Source of the DNA: Solwaraspora sp. WMMD792 | GTDB taxonomy: Bacteria; Actinomycetota; Actinomycetes; Mycobacteriales; Micromonosporaceae | Length of the DNA: 64,000 nucleotides | Assembly (NCBI RefSeq): GCF_029626105.1 | Contig: NZ_JARUBH010000009.1 | Span: 1,550,001-1,614,000 of the forward strand | Direction: 5' to 3' | In this document: positions 681 to 11,211 of the stretch, one piece after another | How the letters are laid out: the number at the start of each line of letters is the position of its first letter | Numbering within the stretch: the stretch's first letter is position 1 | Notes under the pieces: generated by a model | What the model was told of the DNA's origin: nothing | The model's input: only the letters and a program-made list of their open reading frames with translations | Databases searched by the model: none | Program-made: the position numbers and the translations under genes

Positions 681-729
681 GTACGCCGCCAGCGGCCCTG
701 GTCACCCGGCCAGGCCGCTGGCGGCGTAC
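681..729. terminator. Perfect inverted repeat, probable terminator of the convergent lipid operon
   Basis: Two 17-nt arms (681-697 and 713-729) are perfectly complementary around a 15-nt loop. The right arm lies inside the last codons of the SGNH hydrolase gene. It sits between two convergent genes and could serve both. Confidence 0.6.
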
Positions 730-1559
730 GCCACCTCGGCCAGCAGGTTCTGTCCGTCGGTGTCCGGGTGGAAGTAGTCCAGCCGGTTCAGTTGATCCAC
801 GGTGAACTGGGTGTCGTGTACCGCTCCGTCGTCGAACCGGCACCGGTCGCCGTACGCCCGGCAGGCCCCGGCCAGCTCGCGGTTGTACGCCGCGACCCGG
901 TCGCGTACCGCCGCCCGGCGCTGTGTCGCGGCCTCGTCGGTCGCTGTGGCGTCGGCCAGCAGCGACGGACACACGCCACGGTCCCAGGCCCGTACCACCC
1001 GCTCCTCGCCGTGCCCGATCTCCCACAGCCGGTACAGGTCGGGGATGCTCAACACCAGGACCTTCGCCTGCGGCAGCCCGTCGCCCAGCACCCGTAGGGC
1101 CCGGTCGACGTCGTCCCGGAACGCCGCCGTCGAGGTCATGTCCTGCGGCGTCGCCCGGCACGCGTCGTTCGCGCCGATCAGCACCGTCACGTACTGGGCC
1201 GAGACGTCCACCGCCGACGCGGCCTGGTCGGCCAACGCCGCCGCCCGGGCCCCTGGCACCGAGAAGTCGTGCTCCTGCCCCTCCATAGCGGGATTGATCT
1301 CGGCGATCCGCTGGTACAGGCTCTCCACCCGGAATCCGTCGCCGGTGGACCACGAGTTGCGCCGGCAACTGGTCAGTACGACGCAGGAGCCGTACCCGGC
1401 GGTGATCGAGTCGCCGAGCGCCGCCATCGACGACGGCAGATCGGTGCCAGGTGGCGGCGGTGCCGGCGTGCCCGGCCCGTCGCCGTCCTCGCCAGCTTCG
1501 CAGGCCAGCGCCACGAGGGCGCAGACAGCGGCGGCGCCGGCCACCCAACGTCGGTGCAT
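702..1559 (-). CDS. SGNH/GDSL-family hydrolase, probable lipoprotein
   Basis: 285 aa. An Arg-rich start and a hydrophobic stretch end at Cys20 (VALAC), a somewhat non-canonical lipobox, so the protein is probably exported and perhaps lipid-anchored. SGNH blocks are clear: GDSITAGYG (block I, nucleophile Ser), a GAND block (III) and DYFHPDTDGQ near the C-terminus (Asp/His of block V). The family hydrolyses esters of lipids, acylated sugars or polymers. The start is chosen at the ATG preceded by a GGAGG site; longer reading upstream would overlap the previous gene. It starts 38 bp after the epimerase gene on the same strand, so it probably belongs to the upstream lipid-type operon, and may release or edit its product outside the cell (inference). 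Confidence 0.85.
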   Translation of the reverse strand: MHRRWVAGAAAVCALVALACEAGEDGDGPGTPAPPPPGTDLPSSMAALGDSITAGYGSCVVLTSCRRNSWSTGDGFRVESLYQRIAEINPAMEGQEHDFSVPGARAAALADQAASAVDVSAQYVTVLIGANDACRATPQDMTSTAAFRDDVDRALRVLGDGLPQAKVLVLSIPDLYRLWEIGHGEERVVRAWDRGVCPSLLADATATDEAATQRRAAVRDRVAAYNRELAGACRAYGDRCRFDDGAVHDTQFTVDQLNRLDYFHPDTDGQNLLAEVAYAASGLAG

Positions 1560-1597
1560 CCGGACCTCCAGCGAGACGGAAAGCGACGGAAGGGTAA

Positions 1598-2566
1598 CTA
1601 TATGCGTCGGCGTGGATCTGGCGACACCCACCGGGCCGGACCGGTCGACAGCTCCGCCAGGAAGTCGGGCAGGGTCCGCCGGGGCGCCCACCCCTGGGCG
1701 TACGCCCGACCCAGATCCAGCACCGTGCCGTACGCCAACTGCTCCACCGCGTACCGGGTCAGCCGCCCGGTGCCCGGCACCCCGAGCCGGGTCGCGCCGC
1801 TGGCCAGCGCCGCCGCGCCCAGCGCGACCGGCACCGGCACCCGCAACGGCCGCGCCGGTCGGCCGGCCGCCGCCAGCACGCCGGTGACCACCGCGTCGCG
1901 CGAGTACGGCGTCGCGTCGGCCACGTTGTACGGTCCCGGTGGCCAGCGCAGCGCCGCCAGGCAGGCGTCGGCCAGGTTCTCCACCGCCGTCAGGCTCATC
2001 GCCACGTCCGGACCGGGCACCGGCACCCGACCCCGCCGGACCGCGGCCAGCAACCGGGGCAGCAGATGCGGGTCGCCGGCCCCGTACACCGCCCGGGGCC
2101 GCAGCACCACCGCACCGGCCGCCAACGCCAGCCGCTCCCCGGCGGCCTTGGTCCGCCCGTACCCGGTGCGCTGGCCGTCGGTCGGGTGATCCTCCCGGAT
2201 CGCGACGCTGTGCCGACCCGGCCGGTAGACGCTGGCGCTGCTCACCCAGACCACCGGCCGGTCGGCCGCCGCCCGCAGCAGTCGGGCGGTGCCCGCCACG
2301 TTCACCGCGTGGTACGCGGCCTCCGCCGCCGCGCCGGCCGGTGGATCCCCGACCGCCGCCGCCAGATGCACGACGACGTCGACGCCCCGCAGGTCCGGTA
2401 GCTCCCGGCCGGCGTCCCACGGCACGTGCCGGCCCACCGGGCCGGGCCGGCGGCCTACCGCCACCACCTCGGCACCGGCCGTGGCGGCTGCCCGCGCCAC
2501 CGCCGACCCGCAGAAGCCGCTGGCCCCGGTCACCGCGACCCGCAGCCCGGTCAGCCGGGTGTTCAC
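1598..2566 (-). CDS. NAD-dependent epimerase/dehydratase, OleD-like dehydrogenase candidate
   Basis: 322 aa extended SDR. The Rossmann motif TGASGFCG is at residues 13-20, and VSSASVY is followed by the catalytic pair Tyr136-x3-Lys140. The GTG start overlaps the P450 stop as GTGA (2563-2566), so the two genes are translationally coupled. By sequence alone it could act on a nucleotide sugar or reduce a keto group of a lipid. The context (OleA-like ketosynthase and AMP ligase in the same operon) favours an OleD-type role: NADPH reduction of a 2-alkyl-3-keto acid to the hydroxy acid. The substrate is inferred, not shown. Confidence 0.8.
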   Translation of the reverse strand: MNTRLTGLRVAVTGASGFCGSAVARAAATAGAEVVAVGRRPGPVGRHVPWDAGRELPDLRGVDVVVHLAAAVGDPPAGAAAEAAYHAVNVAGTARLLRAAADRPVVWVSSASVYRPGRHSVAIREDHPTDGQRTGYGRTKAAGERLALAAGAVVLRPRAVYGAGDPHLLPRLLAAVRRGRVPVPGPDVAMSLTAVENLADACLAALRWPPGPYNVADATPYSRDAVVTGVLAAAGRPARPLRVPVPVALGAAALASGATRLGVPGTGRLTRYAVEQLAYGTVLDLGRAYAQGWAPRRTLPDFLAELSTGPARWVSPDPRRRI

Positions 2567-3693
2567 CGGGTCGCCCGGACCGTCAGCCGGGCCCAGCCCG
2601 GCAGCGCCGACCGCCGGTCCACCCGCGCCCCGGTCACCACCGGCCGGTACGGCGCCAGCGCGGCGAGCACGTCGTCGAGCTGGGCGTGGGCCAGCCGGGC
2701 ACCGGGGCAGTGGTGCGGGCCGGTGCCGAACACCAGATGCCCGACCGCCGCCGGCACCGGCGCGTCCGGATCCGGGTGCGGCGCACCGGCGCGGGCCGCG
2801 TGCCGGGCGACCAGCAGCAGCCGGTCGCCGGCCCGCAGCCGGGTACCGGCGCGCAACCGGCTGCCGGCCAGTTCGGCGGTGCCGGCCACCACCCGGGGCA
2901 GCACCGGGCTCGGCGCGGTCACCCGTAGCAGCTCCGCCACCAGCACCGTCCGCGAATCGGCGCGGTCCGCCGCCGGCCACAGCCGGTCGTCGGCGCACCA
3001 GGCGACGGCCCGAGGGATCGCCGCCACCGTCGTGTTGATCGAGGCGACGGCCAGCATGCCGGCCCGGGCCGCCTCGTCCGCCGGCCCGCCGAGCAGCCGG
3101 GTCAGCTCGGCGGCGGCCGACGCGGTGGCGGCGCGGTCCCGGCGGGCCCGGCCCGGCCAGCGCAGCCCGGGCAGATGCCCCCGGGCGGCGAGCGCCGCAG
3201 CGGACCGGGCCGCGGCGGTCAACGCGTACGCCGGCACCGACACGTCCAGCATCGCGGCGGTGCTCGCCCCGGACAGCTCGGCGACCAGGTCGACGACATC
3301 CACCTCGGCCCCGTCGCCCAGCGGTGCCAGCCGCCGCCGCAGTACCTCCAACCAGACCGGCCGCAGCCGGGCGACCCCGTCGGCGCCGAACACCGACGCG
3401 GCACCCCGGCGGGTCTGTCGGTGCCCGGCACCGTCCTGGTCGAACAGGAATCCGTCGCCGCCGGTGGCCCGGCGCGCCGCCCCGGCGGTGGTCCGCTCGG
3501 CCGAGCGGTCCAACGGGACCCGACGCAGCGCGTCGGCGAACGGCGCCGCGTCGTGCACCAGCACGATGCGGCCGATCCGGCGCACCGGCGCGCGTCGGGT
3601 CGCCGCCAACAGAGCGAACAGCACCGGATGGCTGCCCAGGTAGACCCGCCGGTCCCGGCGGCGGCCCCGCCGGGCCGGGCGCGGCTCAACCAT
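2563..3693 (-). CDS. Cytochrome P450
   Basis: 376 aa, slightly shorter than typical bacterial CYPs (~400). The heme-binding loop FGTGPHHCPG is present, with the thiolate ligand at Cys329, and an ExxR motif (ELLR) marks the K helix. The I-helix segment reads ASINTT, so the usual acidic residue before Thr is Asn. This occurs in some biosynthetic P450s with altered proton delivery. It overlaps the upstream ligase by 8 bp and the downstream epimerase by 4 bp, placing it firmly inside the operon. Expected role: hydroxylation, epoxidation or desaturation of the lipid made by the neighbours. No dedicated ferredoxin gene is adjacent. Confidence 0.9.
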   Translation of the reverse strand: MVEPRPARRGRRRDRRVYLGSHPVLFALLAATRRAPVRRIGRIVLVHDAAPFADALRRVPLDRSAERTTAGAARRATGGDGFLFDQDGAGHRQTRRGAASVFGADGVARLRPVWLEVLRRRLAPLGDGAEVDVVDLVAELSGASTAAMLDVSVPAYALTAAARSAAALAARGHLPGLRWPGRARRDRAATASAAAELTRLLGGPADEAARAGMLAVASINTTVAAIPRAVAWCADDRLWPAADRADSRTVLVAELLRVTAPSPVLPRVVAGTAELAGSRLRAGTRLRAGDRLLLVARHAARAGAPHPDPDAPVPAAVGHLVFGTGPHHCPGARLAHAQLDDVLAALAPYRPVVTGARVDRRSALPGWARLTVRATR

Positions 3694-5176
3694 CGCCGGC
3701 CACCTGCGCCGCAGCTCGCGCCGTCACCTGCGCTGCGACCTGCGCCGCCGCCTGCCGGTCCGGCTTACGGGACCGCCCGGCCAGCGGAACCCGGGCGAAC
3801 ACCACCCGGTCCGGGCGGGCCGACCCCATCCGGTCCAGCACCGGCCGCAGCGCGGCCCGCAGCCGGGCCCGGTCGGTGCCCGGCTCCGGCTGCACCACTG
3901 CTACCAGCTGCTCGTCACCGTCGTCGGCGGGCACGCCGATCAGTACCGCCAGCGCCACCCCGGGTACGTGCAGAGCCGGCTCGTACAGCCCCGGGTAGAT
4001 GTTCTCCGCCGCCCGCAGCACCATGTCCTTGCACCGGCCGGCGAGCACCAGCCGGTCGCCGTCGAGCCGGCCGACGTCGCCGGTGGCCACCTCGGCCATC
4101 GGCGGTTCACCGAGGTACCGGTCCGCCTGCCCCGGACCGGACAGCCAGACCTGCCCGGTGTCGTCGACCCGGGCGGCCACCCCCGGAAGTGGCCGGCCCA
4201 CCAGGTCCCCGTCGGCGGCGTACCCGCGCTTGTCGGCCTCCTCCACGGCGGCGGCCGGGAACAGTTCGGTGAGCGCGTACACCCCGTACGCCCGGTCCGC
4301 GCCGGCCCGGCGGACCCGGCCCAGCAGGGCGGCGCTGACCGGGGCTGAGCCGCTGAACACCTGCCCGGTCAGCCGGGGCGAGTGGTCGAGCACCGCGCGC
4401 AGCTGCGGCGGTGTCAGGTACGTCGCCTGCGGCCGCAGCCGGGTCAGCTGCCGGGCCAGCAGCGCCGGCGACCGGGCCGGCAACGCCACCGGCGCGCCGG
4501 CCGCCAACGCCGGCACCAGCACGAAGAACGTGCCGCCCAGCACCGGCACGTCGGGCTGCGGGCCGACCAGCCCGGTCACCGCCCGCATCCCGGCGGCCAG
4601 CCCGGCCCGGGTGTGCACCACCGCCCGGGGGCGGCTGGTCGTCCCCGAGGTGAAGACGATCACCGCGTCACCGTCACCGTCGAACGGCGTCGGCAGCGGG
4701 CCGACGCCCGCCGGCAGCGTCGGCGCGCAGCCGGGCAACCGGCGCCCGACCGTACGGACCGGGGCGATCCGGGTCAGGTCCGGCAACGCCAGGTGCGCGC
4801 GGCGGGCCAGCGGGCCGGCCCAACCGGCCACCGCCTGCGCCGCCGAGTCGGCCAGCACCAACGCCGGCTCGGCCACGGCGAGCCGGGCGGTCAGCACATC
4901 CGGGCCGGCCGTCGGGTCCAGCACCGCCACCCGCACGCCCAGGTGGTACGCGGCCAGCAGCACCGCCAGCGACCGGGGGCCCGGGCGTACCGCCAGAGCG
5001 AGGGTGTCCCCGGCGGCGAGCCCGTGCCGGGCCAGCGCGGCGGTGTACCGGTCGGTGAGATTGGTCAGGTCACCGGCGGTGGCCCGGACCCGGGACCGAC
5101 CGGTCAGCGCCGTGGCGGTCAGCACCGCCGGGCGGTGCGGGTCGGCGCGCAGTACCGTGGCGAGGCGGTCCAGCAT
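3686..5176 (-). CDS. AMP-dependent acyl ligase, OleC/beta-lactone-synthetase-like candidate
   Basis: 496 aa ANL-superfamily enzyme. The P-loop FTSGTTSRPRA lies near residue 175; the usual Lys is Arg. GSAPVSAALL and YALTELFP follow in the positions of OleC-like GAPV and TEALP motifs, then a GR.KD hinge. A C-terminal SRKPDR carries the catalytic Lys region. The last ~25 residues are an Ala/Gln repeat. In the Ole pathway OleC adenylates a beta-hydroxy acid and closes it to a beta-lactone. A plain fatty-acyl-CoA/AMP ligase is the alternative, and the GRCKDM hinge looks more like that class. It starts 28 bp after the GT2 gene. Confidence 0.85.
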   Translation of the reverse strand: MLDRLATVLRADPHRPAVLTATALTGRSRVRATAGDLTNLTDRYTAALARHGLAAGDTLALAVRPGPRSLAVLLAAYHLGVRVAVLDPTAGPDVLTARLAVAEPALVLADSAAQAVAGWAGPLARRAHLALPDLTRIAPVRTVGRRLPGCAPTLPAGVGPLPTPFDGDGDAVIVFTSGTTSRPRAVVHTRAGLAAGMRAVTGLVGPQPDVPVLGGTFFVLVPALAAGAPVALPARSPALLARQLTRLRPQATYLTPPQLRAVLDHSPRLTGQVFSGSAPVSAALLGRVRRAGADRAYGVYALTELFPAAAVEEADKRGYAADGDLVGRPLPGVAARVDDTGQVWLSGPGQADRYLGEPPMAEVATGDVGRLDGDRLVLAGRCKDMVLRAAENIYPGLYEPALHVPGVALAVLIGVPADDGDEQLVAVVQPEPGTDRARLRAALRPVLDRMGSARPDRVVFARVPLAGRSRKPDRQAAAQVAAQVTARAAAQVAGDG

Positions 5177-5204
5177 CAGCCGTGGTCCTTCCCGGTCGGC
5201 GGAG

Positions 5205-5993
5205 TCACCGCGGATCCTCGGTCAACGGGCCGGCACCCCAGTCCAGGTACCAGGCGGCGGTGCGGCGCAGGCCGTACGCCCGCAGCCGCCGGGTCGAGTT
5301 CTCCACCACCATGTCCCGGCGGTGGGTGATCGCCGACGTGGTGCGGCGTACCCGGTTCAGGAAGGCCCGGTCGGTCGGCGACGGCCGGCGCGGCATGCCG
5401 CCGCACGCCTGGTACAGCTCGGCGGTGACCGCCATGTTGTTGCCGGCGTGCATCCGGTACGGCGCCAGGTAGCCGCCGGTGCGTCGGTGCGCCGGGCGCA
5501 GCCGCCCGAACGTCGCGGCGAGCAGCACCAGCATCCGGAATCCGGCCCTGCCGACCGGGCCGTGCTCGTCGCGGCGGGCCCGGATCGCACCGCAGACCAG
5601 CCCGGCCCCGTCGGCCAGGCCGGCACGTGCCGCCGCCACCCAGCCGGGACGCGGCAGACAGTCCGCGTCGGTACGGGCCAGCCACCGAGCGCCGTGCGTG
5701 ATGGCGTACCGGAAACCGGTGTCGACCGCAGCCCCGACGCCCTTCTGCGGTTCCCGCAGCAGCCGGACCGGAAACGGCGCGGCCCCGGCGAACCGCTCGA
5801 CCACGGCGACGGTGCCGTCGGTGGAGTTGTTGTCGACCACGACCAGGGTGAAGTCCCGGTCGGTCTGGGCGGCCAGCGCGGCCAGTGTGGCACCGATGCG
5901 GGCCTGCTCCTGGTACGCCGGCACCACCACCCACAGCGGTCCGTCACCGACCGCCGCCGGTGCGGCGGGTGGCTGCTCGACCGCCCGGGTCAC
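5205..5993 (-). CDS. Glycosyltransferase family 2
   Basis: 262 aa. GT-A fold signatures are VVPAYQEQARIG near residue 25, VVDNNSTDGT near residue 55, and a metal-binding DADC (DxD) near residue 113. No transmembrane segment is obvious, so it is probably cytosolic or peripheral. Its GTG/ATG region overlaps the ketosynthase stop by 4 bp (5990-5993), indicating coupling. GT2 enzymes transfer sugars from nucleotide donors. Here the acceptor is plausibly the lipid product of the operon, which would make a glycolipid (inference). The C-terminal ~60 residues are Arg-rich. Confidence 0.9.
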   Translation of the reverse strand: MTRAVEQPPAAPAAVGDGPLWVVVPAYQEQARIGATLAALAAQTDRDFTLVVVDNNSTDGTVAVVERFAGAAPFPVRLLREPQKGVGAAVDTGFRYAITHGARWLARTDADCLPRPGWVAAARAGLADGAGLVCGAIRARRDEHGPVGRAGFRMLVLLAATFGRLRPAHRRTGGYLAPYRMHAGNNMAVTAELYQACGGMPRRPSPTDRAFLNRVRRTTSAITHRRDMVVENSTRRLRAYGLRRTAAWYLDWGAGPLTEDPR

Positions 5994-7018
5994 GGCTTCT
6001 CCCAGACCATCGTCATCACGCTGACCCCGCCACCCAGACCGATCGCCAGCACCCGGTCACCGCTGCGCAGCCCGGCGTCGACCCGGGCCAGCTGTACGCC
6101 GAGCGTGGCGCTGGCCAGGTTGCCCAACTCGTCGACGGTGACCTCCAGCTTCTCCTTCGGCACTCCGGTGACCTCGATGAAGCGTTCCAGGTACGGCACG
6201 CTGACCTGGTGCACCAGGACGCGCTCGTAGTCGACCCAGTCCCAGCCGGTGCGCCGCCGCACCCGGTCGAGGATGTCGGTGCCGATCCGTTCGAAGACCG
6301 ACCGCAGGGCGTGCCCGTCGCCGTGGAAGTAGGTGTGCTCGTCACCGCGCGGATGTCGGGAGCCACCGCCGAAGATGCCACCGACCGACCAGTGCCCGGA
6401 GCGGGTTTCGGTGTCGACGTCGACGATCCCGCCGCGCCGGACCGGCTCGACCAGCACCGCCGCCCCGCCGTCGCCGAACGTGTAGCCGGCGAACGACGAC
6501 CGGGCCTGCGCCATGCTCTCCAGCCGGGGACGCATCACCCGGGTCGGGGTCTCGCCGGTGACGACCAGCGCCCGCCGCGCCCGACCGGCGACGATCATCG
6601 ACCGGGCCAGGTCGATGCCGTTGATGAAGCTGTTGCAGGCGTTGCTGACGTCGACCGCGTGCGCCGAGCCGCCCAGCTCGGCCTGGACGATGTGCGCGGT
6701 CGCCGGCTCGACCAGGTCCCGGCTGGCCGAGGCGAACAGCAGCAGGTCGACGTCGTCGGGGGTGTGCCCGGCGGCGGCGAGCGCCCGCTGGGCGGCCCGC
6801 ACCGCGAAGGTCGAGGCGTACTCGTCGTCCGCGGCGACCCGACGCTGTCCGATCCCGGTCATCGTGGCGAACAGGCCGGGCGGCAGCACGATGTCGCTGG
6901 CGGCAGCGATCCGGTCCTGCAGGTCGGCGGTGGCGAGGGTACGGTCGGGCAGGCTGACGCCGACCCCGGTGATCCCGACCCGGGGTACGGGCCACTCCGG
7001 TGGCGACGGAACGTTCAT
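5990..7018 (-). CDS. 3-oxoacyl-ACP synthase III family, OleA-like acyl-CoA condensing enzyme
   Basis: 342 aa thiolase-fold enzyme with catalytic Cys128 (VSNAC), His270 (LVHQ) and Asn300 (ELGN). Glu104 lies in the sequence EPATA. In OleA of Xanthomonas campestris the equivalent Glu117, 26 residues before Cys143, is the general base for head-to-head Claisen condensation of two acyl-CoAs, and FabH proteins lack it. Here the spacing is 24. This favours an OleA-type (non-decarboxylating) rather than FabH role. It is the first gene of the six-gene operon running to 702. A 14-bp palindrome lies just upstream of its start. Confidence 0.88.
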   Translation of the reverse strand: MNVPSPPEWPVPRVGITGVGVSLPDRTLATADLQDRIAAASDIVLPPGLFATMTGIGQRRVAADDEYASTFAVRAAQRALAAAGHTPDDVDLLLFASASRDLVEPATAHIVQAELGGSAHAVDVSNACNSFINGIDLARSMIVAGRARRALVVTGETPTRVMRPRLESMAQARSSFAGYTFGDGGAAVLVEPVRRGGIVDVDTETRSGHWSVGGIFGGGSRHPRGDEHTYFHGDGHALRSVFERIGTDILDRVRRRTGWDWVDYERVLVHQVSVPYLERFIEVTGVPKEKLEVTVDELGNLASATLGVQLARVDAGLRSGDRVLAIGLGGGVSVMTMVWEKP

Positions 7019-7038
7019 CTGCTCAGCTTCCTGCCGGA

Positions 7039-7052
7039 CCGGACCGGTCCGG
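7039..7052. promoter_or_regulatory. 14-bp perfect palindrome upstream of the lipid operon
   Basis: CCGGACCGGTCCGG is centred about 27 bp upstream of the ketosynthase start and within the gap to the divergent small gene. A palindrome at this position could be a repressor site, but GC-rich palindromes are common by chance in this genome. Confidence 0.25.
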
Positions 7053-7141
7053 ATGAGTAGGGGTGCTCAGCTCGACCTGGTGGTGCGGGCCGGCGTCGGT
7101 GGCGAGGTTACGGCCCGGTGTCTGCCGGGTACAGCCCGGGG

Positions 7142-7408
7142 ATGGCCACAAAGTCGCAGCCCAAGGGGGCCCGGGGGACCGTCGGTCACGCCTACAGCGC
7201 GTTGAATCTGCGACTGGCGATGGCCGGTTTCGGGCTGGTCTTCTGCACCGTGCTCGGGGTGCTCGCCTGGCGGGCCGAACTGACCGCTGGCGCGATCGTG
7301 CTGTGGCTGCTGGCCGTGATCGCTGTGGTCGACCTGGTCGTCGTGCAGCGTCGCCGCCGGGCCCGCCGGCGGGAGCAACCGGGCGTACGGCATTCACTCT
7401 TCGAGTAA
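7142..7408 (+). CDS. Small two-helix membrane protein (possibly DUF6343-like)
   Basis: 88 aa from the ATG at 7142; an in-frame GTG at 7118 would add eight residues. A polar N-terminus with SALNLRLAMAGFG is followed by two hydrophobic segments (roughly residues 26-46 and 50-68) and a very basic tail (RRRRARRRE). The pattern fits small actinobacterial inner-membrane proteins of the DUF6343 type, recalled from memory and not checked. It is divergent from the lipid operon. Function unknown. Confidence 0.65.
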   Translation: MATKSQPKGARGTVGHAYSALNLRLAMAGFGLVFCTVLGVLAWRAELTAGAIVLWLLAVIAVVDLVVVQRRRRARRREQPGVRHSLFE

Positions 7409-8475: not shown

Positions 8476-8778
8476 CCGGAATTCGGTGGCCCCGCCCGGC
8501 GTTCAGGGCTAGCGTGACCGCCATGTTCGGCACCGTCGGCGCTGTGCGGCCCGCAGGTCTTCACCTGCCGGGCGCCGCCGTCGTGTGCGCGTGGCTGGCT
8601 GATACCCGAGGCTGACCCTCCTCCCGCTGCGGCAGAACCACGGAGGAGGGTGGCCCGGTCCTTCCGGCGCCGCCCGTCACTGGGTGCGCCGGGCGGCGTG
8701 GTTCTGACGCGGTCGGGCGGTCTGGCACCCGCCCGCGTTCGTCGTCCGCCAGCTCGTTTCCCACTCTGGAAGATCATC
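8476..8778 (+). promoter_or_regulatory. Structured leader of the divergent EF-Tu gene with possible leader peptide
   Basis: This 300-bp stretch before the EF-Tu gene holds a 30-codon open frame (ATG 8523, TGA 8613-8615). Its stop falls at the base of a 10-bp hairpin (8615-8624 pairing with 8642-8651), and a second 9-bp hairpin follows (8668-8676 with 8690-8698). A short frame ending inside a stem that hides a GGAGGAGGG tract is the layout of a translation-coupled attenuator, but this is inference. An in-frame GTG at 8650 would extend EF-Tu by 43 residues. It is rejected because the canonical EF-Tu N-terminus begins at 8779. Confidence 0.45.
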
Positions 8779-9966
8779 ATGGCCAAGAGTCAGTTCGTGC
8801 GGGCGAAGCCGCACCTCAACATCGGCACCATGGGTCACGTCGACCACGGCAAGACCACCCTGACCGCCGCGATCACCAAGGTTCTCGCCGACCGGGACCC
8901 GGCGGCCAACCGGTTCGTGTCCTTCGACGGCATCGACCGGGCGCCGGAGGAGGTCTCGCGGGGCATCACCATCAACATCTCGCACGTCGAGTACGAGACC
9001 GCGACCCGGCACTACGCCCACGTGGACATGCCCGGCCACGCCGATTTCGTGAAGAACATGATCACGGGGGCGGCGCAGGTGGACGGGGCGATCCTGGTCG
9101 TCTCCGCGCTCGACGGAGCGATGCCGCAGACCCGCGAGCACGTGCTGCTGGCCCGTCGGGTCGGGGTGCCGTACCTGGTGGTGGCGATGAACAAGGCCGA
9201 CGCGGTCGACGACCCGGAACTGCTCGACCTGGTCGAGCTCGAGGTCCGCGACCTCGTCACCGAGTACGGGTTCCCCGGTGAGCAGGTGCCGGTGGTCCGG
9301 GTGTCGGCGCTGCGGGCGCTGGAGGGCGACCCGCGCTGGGTGGACTCCATTGTGGAGCTGCTCGACGCGGTCGACCGGTACGTCCCGGTGCCGCCCCGCG
9401 AGTTGGGTGAGCCGTTCCTGATGCCGATCGAGAACGTGCTGACCATCTCCGGCCGGGGCACCGTGGTGACCGGCGCGGTCGAGCGGGGCACCCTGCGGCT
9501 CGGCGACCCGGTGGAGGTGGTCGGCCTCGGTCCGACCCTGTCGACCGTGGCGACCGGGCTGGAGACGTTCGGCAAATCGTTGGACATCGCCGAGGCCGGC
9601 GACAACGCCGCCGTACTGCTGCGCGGGGTCAAGCGCGACCAGGTGCAGCGGGGCCAGGTGGTGGCGGTGCCCGGCAGCGTCACCGGGCACCAACGGTTCC
9701 GGGCCCGGCTGTACGTCCTGACCACCGCTGAGGGCGGCCGGCACACGCCGTTCTTCGCGAACTACCGGCCGCAGTTCTACTTCCGTACCACGGACGTTGT
9801 CGGGTCGGTGCGGCTCGCCGACGGCGAGATGGCCATGCCGGGCGACACCGTCGAGGTGACGGTGGAGCTGGGCAAGCCGGTCGCGATGGACGTCGGGCTC
9901 GGCTTCGCGGTCCGTGAGGGCGGCCGTACGGTGGCCGCCGGCACGGTGGCCGAACTGCTCGACTGA
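8779..9966 (+). CDS. tuf3: Divergent elongation factor Tu (EF-Tu3 type)
   Basis: 395 aa, full length. It has all GTPase motifs: GHVDHGKT (19-26), DMPGH (83-87), NKAD, and SALRALEG. The sequence differs from the main actinobacterial EF-Tu throughout, matching in style the second EF-Tu (tuf3) of Streptomyces ([37 protein letters not shown]). In Streptomyces coelicolor tuf3 is inessential and reported to be under positive stringent control. Residue Arg127 aligns with E. coli Gln124 (mature numbering), where Lys/Arg substitutions give kirromycin resistance. The positions equivalent to L120, Y160, G316, Q329 and A375 look unchanged. It stands alone, with no str operon genes, between a structured leader and a strong terminator. 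Confidence 0.93.
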
Positions 9967-9971
9967 GACCC

Positions 9972-10008
9972 GGGTACGGCCCTTCGGTCCGACCGAAGGG
10001 CCGTACCC
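9972..10008 (+). terminator. Strong intrinsic-type terminator after EF-Tu
   Basis: A 17-bp perfect stem (9972-9988 with 9992-10008) closes a 3-nt loop six bases after the EF-Tu stop. No U-tract follows, as is usual in high-GC actinomycetes. Confidence 0.85.
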
Positions 10009-10134
10009 ACAGTGGATGGCCGCCGACGGCTTTCTGCTCACAGCAGATCTCCTGTCAGCAGAAAGGGCCGCGGTTCGGTCCGTCACCGGTCGATGCTGGT
10101 AGCCATCATCACCGTGATCGAGAGGGCGTCACTG

Positions 10135-10749
10135 ATGCGGCACACCAGTCCCGCGATGGCTGCGGACGGCGCGACCACCGGCTTCGGCGACCAGGTCTTC
10201 CAACAGCTACTCAAGGAGCGGGTGATCTTTCTCGGCACCCAGGTGGACGACACCTCGGCCAACACGATCTGCGCGCAGATGCTGCTGTTGGCGGCCGAGG
10301 ACAGCGAGCGCGACATATTCCTTTACATCAATTCGCCGGGCGGTGTGATCAGCGCCGGCATGGCCGTCTACGACACGATGCACTACATCGGAAACGACGT
10401 GGCGACCGTCGGCCTCGGTCTCGCCGGGTCGATGGGCCAGTTCCTGCTCTGCGCCGGTGCGCCCGGCAAGCGGTACGCCCTGCCGCACACCCGGATCATG
10501 ATGCACCAGCTGTCCGGCGGGATGGGCGGCACCGCCGCCGACATCGCCATCCAGGCCGAGAACATGCTGCACATCAAGCGGACGACGATCGAGCGGATCG
10601 CGTTCCATACCGGACGCACTCGCGAGGAGATCGAGCGGGACTCCGACCGGGACCGGTGGTTCACCGCCGAGCAGGCCCGCGAGTACGGCATCATCGACCA
10701 GGTGATCGCCACCACGGCACAGCTGTCCACCGGTGGCGTCCCCAGCTGA
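10135..10749 (+). CDS. clpP: ClpP-family serine protease subunit (paralogue)
   Basis: 204 aa. The catalytic triad is intact: Ser99 (GLAGSMGQ), His124 (IMMHQ) and Asp173 (DRDRW). SPGG and GKRYALPHTRIMMHQ motifs are typical of ATP-dependent Clp proteolytic subunits. The ATG at 10135 is chosen because GAGAGG precedes it at good spacing and the family N-terminus aligns; the longer frame upstream crosses promoter sequence. It is followed 27 bp later by a ClgR/PopR-type regulator, the arrangement seen with the regulated clpP3P4-popR locus of Streptomyces. No second clpP or clpX is adjacent, so it is an accessory rather than the housekeeping copy. Confidence 0.92.
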   Translation: MRHTSPAMAADGATTGFGDQVFQQLLKERVIFLGTQVDDTSANTICAQMLLLAAEDSERDIFLYINSPGGVISAGMAVYDTMHYIGNDVATVGLGLAGSMGQFLLCAGAPGKRYALPHTRIMMHQLSGGMGGTAADIAIQAENMLHIKRTTIERIAFHTGRTREEIERDSDRDRWFTAEQAREYGIIDQVIATTAQLSTGGVPS

Positions 10750-10776
10750 CCGGGCGAGCCTGGACGGAGACTTTCG

Positions 10777-11211
10777 ATGCTGCTGCGACAGGTCATCGGG
10801 CGGGTGCTGCGTCGGCTCCGGCAGGACCAGGGCCGCACCCTGCAGGACGTCGCCCGAGCCGCTGGCCTGTCAACGGCGTACCTGTCGGAGCTGGAGCGGG
10901 GACGCAAGGAACCGTCGTCGGAGATGTTGGCGTCGATCTGCCGGGCGCTCGGCGTCGCGCTGGATGAGCTGTTGGCGCAGGCGATGCAGGAGTTGACCCG
11001 CAGCCGTCCGATGGCCACCGTCCGCTGGCGACGATCCGTCCGGCCCTCGGGCGGCCCTGCGGCGGCCGCCCGAGGGCGACGGGGACGGGCGGGCCCGTCC
11101 GCCGGCCGGCCCGGCGAGCGGCGGGCCGGCCGACTGATGGCCGGCCCGCCGCTCGCGGCGCAGCAGCGGGCCAGCCACCAGCACATGTTCAGGAGCAGGC
11201 CACCCCGTTGA
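10777..11211 (+). CDS. XRE-family regulator of ClgR/PopR type
   Basis: The first ~75 residues are a clean helix-turn-helix of the ClgR/PopR kind ([15 protein letters not shown], then [20 protein letters not shown], then [20 protein letters not shown]). These proteins activate clp protease genes in actinobacteria. It lies 27 bp after clpP with a GGAG site, so the pair is probably co-transcribed and autoregulated. The C-terminal ~65 residues (Arg/Gly/Pro-rich) are encoded by DNA that folds into perfect hairpins, including the terminator at 11114-11156. The frame also runs 23 bp into the convergent cellulase gene. The natural C-terminus may therefore differ, for instance by a frameshift or by early transcript ending. 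Confidence 0.8.
11114..11156. terminator. Bidirectional terminator hairpin between regulator and GH9 gene
   Basis: A perfect 18-bp stem (11114-11131 with 11139-11156) encloses a 7-nt loop. A second perfect 13-bp stem lies just before it (11044-11056 with 11064-11076). Both fall within the open frame of the XRE regulator. Confidence 0.75.

Follow-up and report, generated by a model that had tools for sequence, protein, structure and literature searches.

A gene set of many actinobacteria for the probable head-to-head condensation of fatty acids, with oxidation and glycosylation of the product

The closest described relative of the operon studied here is a gene cluster of Actinoplanes atraurantiacus, for which the consulted sections of PMC7064751 (2020) list OleA, a glycosyltransferase, OleC, a cytochrome P450, and OleD, report that its genome has no candidate oleB, and predict a hydroxylated, glycosylated beta-lactone. 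The same sections distinguish two distinct actinobacterial OleA clades, give the Glu-Pro pair for all but two of the OleA proteins considered, and describe the A. atraurantiacus OleA, the only purified relative, as active on p-nitrophenyl hexanoate. In the consulted part of PMC7158056, only OleA hits backed by OleBCD neighbors were retained. Among the matches listed in searches of the open-license literature there was neither a later paper on a glycosyltransferase (GT)-type ole locus nor a product of such an operon. The operon compared with these systems occupies positions 702–7018 of the window, which is the whole stretch of 64,000 nucleotides analyzed, located on contig C9 (NZ_JARUBH010000009.1) of the 7.4 Mb genome of Solwaraspora sp. 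WMMD792.

The operon consists of six genes, all on the minus strand, encoding a ketoacyl synthase (KAS), a family 2 glycosyltransferase (GT2), an AMP ligase, a cytochrome P450, a short-chain dehydrogenase/reductase (SDR), and an SGNH esterase. The spacing given for these genes in the original prediction (4, 8, and 4 bp for the overlaps, 28 and 38 bp for the gaps) was confirmed by the coordinates. The five other protein kinds and their printed order, the lack of oleB, and the family Micromonosporaceae are common to this operon and the A. atraurantiacus cluster, a likeness drawn from the published description, while the SGNH gene is additional in the window. Both this architecture and the glycosylated beta-lactone prediction already stood in print in PMC7064751 in 2020. 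The operon represents a real, conserved lipid pathway, already known in outline, for which we infer the catalytic steps and the product. Its core genes, present in many actinobacteria, probably serve to condense a pair of fatty acids head to head, to oxidize the product, and to add a sugar. We see an even chance that the product would be a head-to-head condensed 2-alkyl-3-hydroxy fatty acid that is glycosylated and oxidized and has its carboxyl group activated in the conventional way. The features are as follows, with counts taken from the homologous loci compared below.

5990–7018, minus strand: OleA-type KAS III, 342 amino acids, with catalytic Cys128, His270, and Asn300 and base Glu104
6707–6709, minus strand: codon of Glu104 (EPATAH) of the KAS, Glu in 94/94 loci
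5205–5993, minus strand: family 2 glycosyltransferase, 262 amino acids (GTG), DAD motif at 109–111 in 89/89
3686–5176, minus strand: adenylate-forming (ANL) ligase, 496 amino acids, its own lineage beside OleC
3977–4039, minus strand: ligase A8 motif GRCKDMVLRAAENIYPGLYEP, of the canonical type that OleC lacks
4613–4651, minus strand: ligase phosphate loop TSGTTSRPRAVVH, with Arg184 where Lys is usual
2563–3693, minus strand: cytochrome P450, 376 amino acids, Asn220 in 72/77 and Thr221 in 77/77 orthologues
1598–2566, minus strand: extended SDR, OleD-like, 322 amino acids (GTG), Tyr136/Lys140 in 79/79
702–1559, minus strand: SGNH esterase, 285 amino acids, with an N-terminal signal-like stretch, adjacent to but outside the conserved unit

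Pfam matches over the cut-off were obtained for ACP_syn_III_C, Glycos_transf_2, AMP-binding, Epimerase, and Lipase_GDSL, and the p450 match (20.7 bits) fell slightly short of its cut-off of 22.8.

A total of 94 loci were compared, 90 of them distinct, since L049/L058, L050/L082, L051/L086, and L054/L085 are the same contigs. The KAS was recovered in 94 loci, the GT2 in 89, the P450 in 77, the SDR in 79, the SGNH protein in 9, and the AMP ligase in 84, or 83 when L077, whose ligase is a true OleC, is excluded. Since the complete core set of KAS, GT2, ligase, P450, and SDR was recovered in 73/94 loci, the grouping of these five genes goes beyond chance; a contig end truncates 12 of the 21 incomplete loci. 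The flanking genes, as far as rough gene calls indicate, vary among loci, and therefore the core unit comprises five genes and the SGNH gene is a local addition, found only in the genus of the window and one neighbor (9/94 loci, with L058 repeating L049). The earlier assignment of the esterase to export-side processing or self-protection was consequently dropped as unsupported, the gene lying outside the conserved unit.

Two irregular arrangements were noticed among these loci. The ligase of the Kitasatospora loci L128 (11765–13941) and L119 (11738–13191) appears in the rough calls as two overlapping frames, the result of a gene split or of a frameshift. Locus L052 (6385–8190) has one frame with two separate P450 matches and no GT2 found, and looks like a rearranged member.

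In a scan of 61 genomes, the KAS was present in 6/6 other genomes of the genus with 84–96% identity, and in seven further genomes of the family with 47–76% identity. The best 80 of 143 KAS relatives kept from a scan of named genomes carry 10 genus names, including Micromonospora, Actinoplanes, Paractinoplanes, Virgisporangium, Streptomyces, and Kitasatospora. Of 296 genomes sampled evenly across the class, 35 encoded a relative of the KAS (E <= 1e-40); in 13 of these, the window's own genome included, it scored as the KAS type of the GT-type operon (at least 334 bits). The surroundings of the KAS in the 12 other genomes (L248–L259, with L248 probably the same record as L118) held GT2 and ligase in 12/12 cases, P450 in 11/12, SDR in 9/12, and OleB in 0/12.

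Judged by its sequence, the KAS belongs with OleA rather than with FabH. The residues Glu104 (within EPATA), Cys128, His270, and Asn300 were all located where they had been predicted, and E104, P105, C128, H270, and N300 were invariant across 94/94 loci. In a tree of 50 KAS rows, calculated with a quick method and SH-aLRT support only, without bootstrap, the KAS of the window fell into a 30-row clade (SH-aLRT 96) together with the KAS of other GT-type operons and six OleA proteins whose loci also encode OleB, OleC, and OleD (L260–L264, L266). The Glu-Pro base and the catalytic Cys are present in each of the 30 rows. Ten rows of classic OleA, along with four relatives, and four further KAS from the window's own genome stood outside the clade. 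The very long branches of L006 and L008 make the deep order of this tree uncertain. The invariant residues and the clade shared with OleA of oleABCD loci bear out the OleA-type assignment of the original prediction, and FabH identity was ruled out by the clade and the Glu base.

The best NCBIfam match of the KAS was NF006720 (PRK09258) with 178.8 bits, below the cut-off of 285, and the profile search of the window's own genome gave no PRK09258 match over the cut-off. Four genomes with the second OleA type (G218, G075, G145, and G198) also lie outside the 34/296 genomes matching PRK09258 at E <= 1e-60, and this cut-off seems to mark the classic OleA clade only. In a phmmer search with the KAS, 3s21/3row, which we take to be OleA of Xanthomonas, scored nearly the same (113.0 bits) as a PQS biosynthetic enzyme (113.3 bits), and CorB was matched as well (77.7 bits). 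Since Glu bases also occur outside OleA, these matches could indicate a KAS that forms some other bond, for example in a pyrone or between two carrier-bound 3-oxoacyl chains, the reaction of the PpyS, CorB, and MxnB families, with the product being decorated afterward. We consider this improbable in view of the clade shared with OleA of loci having OleB, OleC, and OleD, and of the OleD-like reductase within the unit. Head-to-head condensation is the reaction that we assign to the KAS because of its clade and residues: Cys128 would take an acyl group, and Glu104, contributed by the partner subunit as in OleA, would assist the head-to-head attack on a second acyl-CoA, yielding a 2-alkyl-3-oxo acid.

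The extended SDR resembles OleD in sequence, as had been proposed. OleD models were the top match in 24/24 scanned proteins (of 79 members), the Tyr-x3-Lys pair Tyr136/Lys140 was found in 79/79, and the SDR of the window scored 88 bits on the OleD model, whose cut-off is 580. A profile of the SDR family gave 74–172 bits with OleD proteins and 34–105 bits with other SDRs of the genome, and these ranges overlap, the OleD of L305 (74 bits) ranking below the other SDR L275 (105). An unrooted tree split the operon SDRs, OleD, and other SDRs three ways, with L276 as a stray long branch. The OleD-like SDR would reduce the 2-alkyl-3-oxo acid to a 2-alkyl-3-hydroxy acid resembling a small mycolic acid.

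The lack of OleB, predicted at the locus, extended to the whole genome, where no close homologue was found. A search with the OleB of L260 gave partial matches only, the best with 50 bits over 110 residues. With a profile of fusion OleB, candidates of this genome reached at most 45 bits as against 144–220 for second-type OleB outside the profile, and with a profile of 20 OleB proteins the best candidate reached 67.6 bits as against 301–486 for members. No close OleB was present in the 94 loci either (best 44 bits). This absence favors the main rival explanation, advanced for the same architecture in PMC7064751 and again in the original prediction, namely that the ligase acts as OleC and a glycosylated beta-lactone persists in the absence of OleB. 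We regard such a product as possible but doubtful, with the ligase as the weakest point of this explanation.

The ligase scored far below the cut-offs of the OleC models, with 49.1 bits on NF045786 (olefin beta-lactone synthetase, cut-off 900) and 76.1 bits on PRK09274 (cut-off 478), and its top models were menE and general CoA ligases. Nor did the window's own genome contain a PRK09274 match over the cut-off, the best elsewhere in it having 178 bits. The A8 motif of ANL enzymes contains the hinge of the C-terminal domain, whose rotation leads from adenylation to the second half-reaction. The canonical form of this motif, GRx[KR]D with N[ILV]YPG, occurred in 83/83 ligases of GT-type operons (four contigs counted twice) and in 12/12 ligases of L248–L259, whereas either motif occurred in 0/32 distinct OleC proteins, including those of the OleB-less loci L308, L309, L074, and L077. 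The OleC of L074 and L077 kept the hinge Asp and lost the remainder of the motif. Around the A10 Lys, 28/32 OleC had R[HN]NxK, and the phosphate loop PRAVVH, with Arg for Lys, was found in 83/83 ligases of GT-type operons. The pattern that sets OleC apart here, without canonical A8 and with R[HN]NxK at A10, comes from this comparison and is no published definition. The 32 OleC proteins comprised 25 of a 27-locus set plus those of L264, L266, L305, L306, L307, L074, and L077, and spanned oleBC fusions, separate OleC and OleB, and the OleB-less loci named above; they include L168, L176, and L177, whose neighborhoods were not read. The A8 counts refer to the whole domain, since the stretch printed for L193, L176, L167, L183, and L188 is another GR pair.

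Our reading of this contrast is that OleC may have traded the second half-reaction typical of ANL enzymes for ring closure and that the ligases of GT-type operons retained it. Because its A8 motif is canonical, the ligase would activate the carboxyl group, or an acyl precursor, for transfer to CoA or another acceptor in the two steps of ANL enzymes, and would not close a beta-lactone. The beta-lactone prediction for the GT-type operon is open to doubt since the ligase is without the motif pattern common to the putative beta-lactone-closing enzymes. The A. atraurantiacus ligase was named OleC in PMC7064751, and the A8 motif of the window's family argues against that name.

In the ligase trees, the ligases of GT-type operons formed a separate 100/100 clade beside OleC, and the other ligases of the genome lay on the far side. 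These trees are unrooted, and three clean groups cannot establish two of them as sisters; the early trees were calculated without L074 and L077, and L074 was added to a later one. A ranking of the ligase as nearest to OleC by profile score was dropped, because a profile without L077 gave overlapping ranges for OleC (46–113 bits) and other ligases of the genome (27–96 bits), so that OleC is not clearly nearer. By motif, cut-offs, and clade, no beta-lactone-type OleC was found at the window locus, and the identification of the ligase as OleC in the original prediction did not hold up. In the trees, the ligase was placed outside the OleC clade.

Several observations weigh against a conventional activation of the carboxyl group and against the proposed scheme as a whole. 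At E <= 1e-10, PRK09274 matched 22/23 and the OleC model 16/23 of the scanned ligases (of 84). In the ANL tree, the ligase falls on the side of OleC (100/99) and apart from other acyl-CoA-ligase-like rows, which favors a beta-lactone; grouping it with nine such rows was rejected (p-AU 0.0097), although this constrained group was picked after the tree had been seen, and seven of its nine rows were NCBIfam-checked. The ligase may have a common origin with OleC, and a shared chemistry is possible. A Gly is expected near the pantetheine in ANL enzymes, and in its place stands Ala390, which precedes the A8 Glu in 82/84 ligases (L077 included). The A8 contrast itself is correlative. Locus L052, with a canonical ligase and no GT2 found, is an exception to the pairing of these genes. 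Finally, according to the consulted sections of PMC7064751, the scarce soluble A. atraurantiacus OleA condensed none of the acyl-CoAs tested, from C8 to C16.

A canonical ligase could also act at the start of the pathway, loading an unusual free acid as a CoA thioester for the KAS, with the remaining steps as in the favored scheme. The match of the PRK06187 and menE models to 23/23 scanned ligases at E <= 1e-10 is consistent with this order of events, as is the canonical A8 motif. However, the ligase gene lies between those of the KAS and the SDR, which is the place of OleC in L260–L264 and L266, and OleA normally draws on the acyl-CoA pool of the cell. We therefore judge this order unlikely and prefer the scheme in which condensation precedes activation.

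The P450 carries the ExxR motif (E254, R257) in 77/77 orthologues and the heme Cys329 in 76/77. In its I-helix, Asn220 replaces the usual acid next to the conserved Thr221, which may alter the oxygen chemistry. Two GT2-matching frames were found in 33/91 loci with a GT2 match. The second was a whole gene between ligase and P450 in the loci inspected (L072, L085, and L132), and in a few others (L111 and L130, for example) it may belong to a disrupted first gene. Because the pairing of P450 and GT2 is conserved, we propose that the P450 would hydroxylate one chain and that the GT2 would add a sugar to this hydroxyl group.

Other ole systems were compared with the window by gene content. The oleABCD loci (L298–L307, nine of them with oleBC fusions and L303 with separate genes, and the second type, L260–L264 and L266) resemble it in having a Glu-Pro OleA-type KAS, an OleD-like SDR, and an ANL ligase, whereas the window has no OleB, has a canonical-A8 ligase for OleC, and adds GT2 and P450. 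Loci of the lipstatin and nocardiolactone types, which we take L309 and L308, respectively, to be by gene content, share with the window an OleA-like KAS, an SDR, an ANL ligase, and the lack of OleB, but they encode a pair of KAS enzymes and an OleC that lacks the canonical A8, in contrast to the one KAS, GT2, and P450 of the window; L309 also encodes a protein like a nonribosomal peptide synthetase (NRPS). No GT2 match was found in the 18 OleC loci read (L260–L264, L266, L298–L309). The L309 locus and a GT-type operon (L251) occur together in genome G239, and in G305 a distant GT-type operon (L258, contig C5) accompanies a classic oleA-oleBC locus (L305, contig C4), so that the GT-type and other ole systems coexist.

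Two loci, L074 of Micromonospora musae MS1-9 and L077 of Micromonospora sp. 15K316, combine parts of both. Their KAS is 68% identical to that of the window and is directly followed by a P450 with 58% identity, but they carry a true OleC (545 and 551 bits), have no GT2, and their SDR is only 31–34% identical to that of the window. In place of the canonical-A8 ligase they have, besides OleC, a large NRPS-like protein, which gave an adenylation match and whose start looks condensation-like when read by eye. With 100/100 support, the OleC of L074 joins the OleC proteins of L308 and L309. That the same KAS and P450 occur alongside a true OleC lends support to the beta-lactone explanation, and the loss of the canonical A8 motif from that OleC sets it apart from the ligase of the window. 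In the simplest reading, the P450-made hydroxyl group would receive a sugar from the GT2 or an amino acid from the NRPS, and the carboxyl end would be handled differently. In L074 (9899–17845) and L077 (9899–17848), the KAS, P450, OleC, SDR, and NRPS-like genes are consecutive and look like a lipstatin-like operon with a P450.

Further genes were noticed around the operon. A divergent small membrane protein is apparently encoded on the plus strand within 7019–7397, upstream of the KAS (by eye), and the short promoter region between the two genes seems to be shared. Consecutive plus-strand genes at 8650–9966, 10012–10749, and 10777–11211 encode, by eye, EF-Tu-like, ClpP-like, and small helix-turn-helix regulator proteins, and this group (8650–11211) could represent housekeeping paralogues.

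To the published outline of the pathway, this analysis adds how widely it is spread, the second GT2, the position of the SGNH gene outside the core, the contrast in ligase motifs, and the loci with swapped partners of KAS and P450. The motif contrast makes the published beta-lactone guess a yes-or-no experiment, for which L074 and L077 provide a natural control, with related KAS and P450 beside a true OleC. To our knowledge, Streptomyces and Micromonospora are not known for mycolic acids. We tentatively suggest, as one possibility, that these operons form a third ole branch, next to those for olefins and beta-lactones. It would be a pathway conserved in actinobacteria for glycosylated 2-alkyl-3-hydroxy lipids that resemble mycolates, in which a canonical ANL ligase would replace OleC and a P450-made hydroxyl group would bear the sugar, while a lipstatin-like sister locus would use the same KAS and P450 for an NRPS. 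Among actinobacteria, which include many producers of antibiotics, the operon is not rare.

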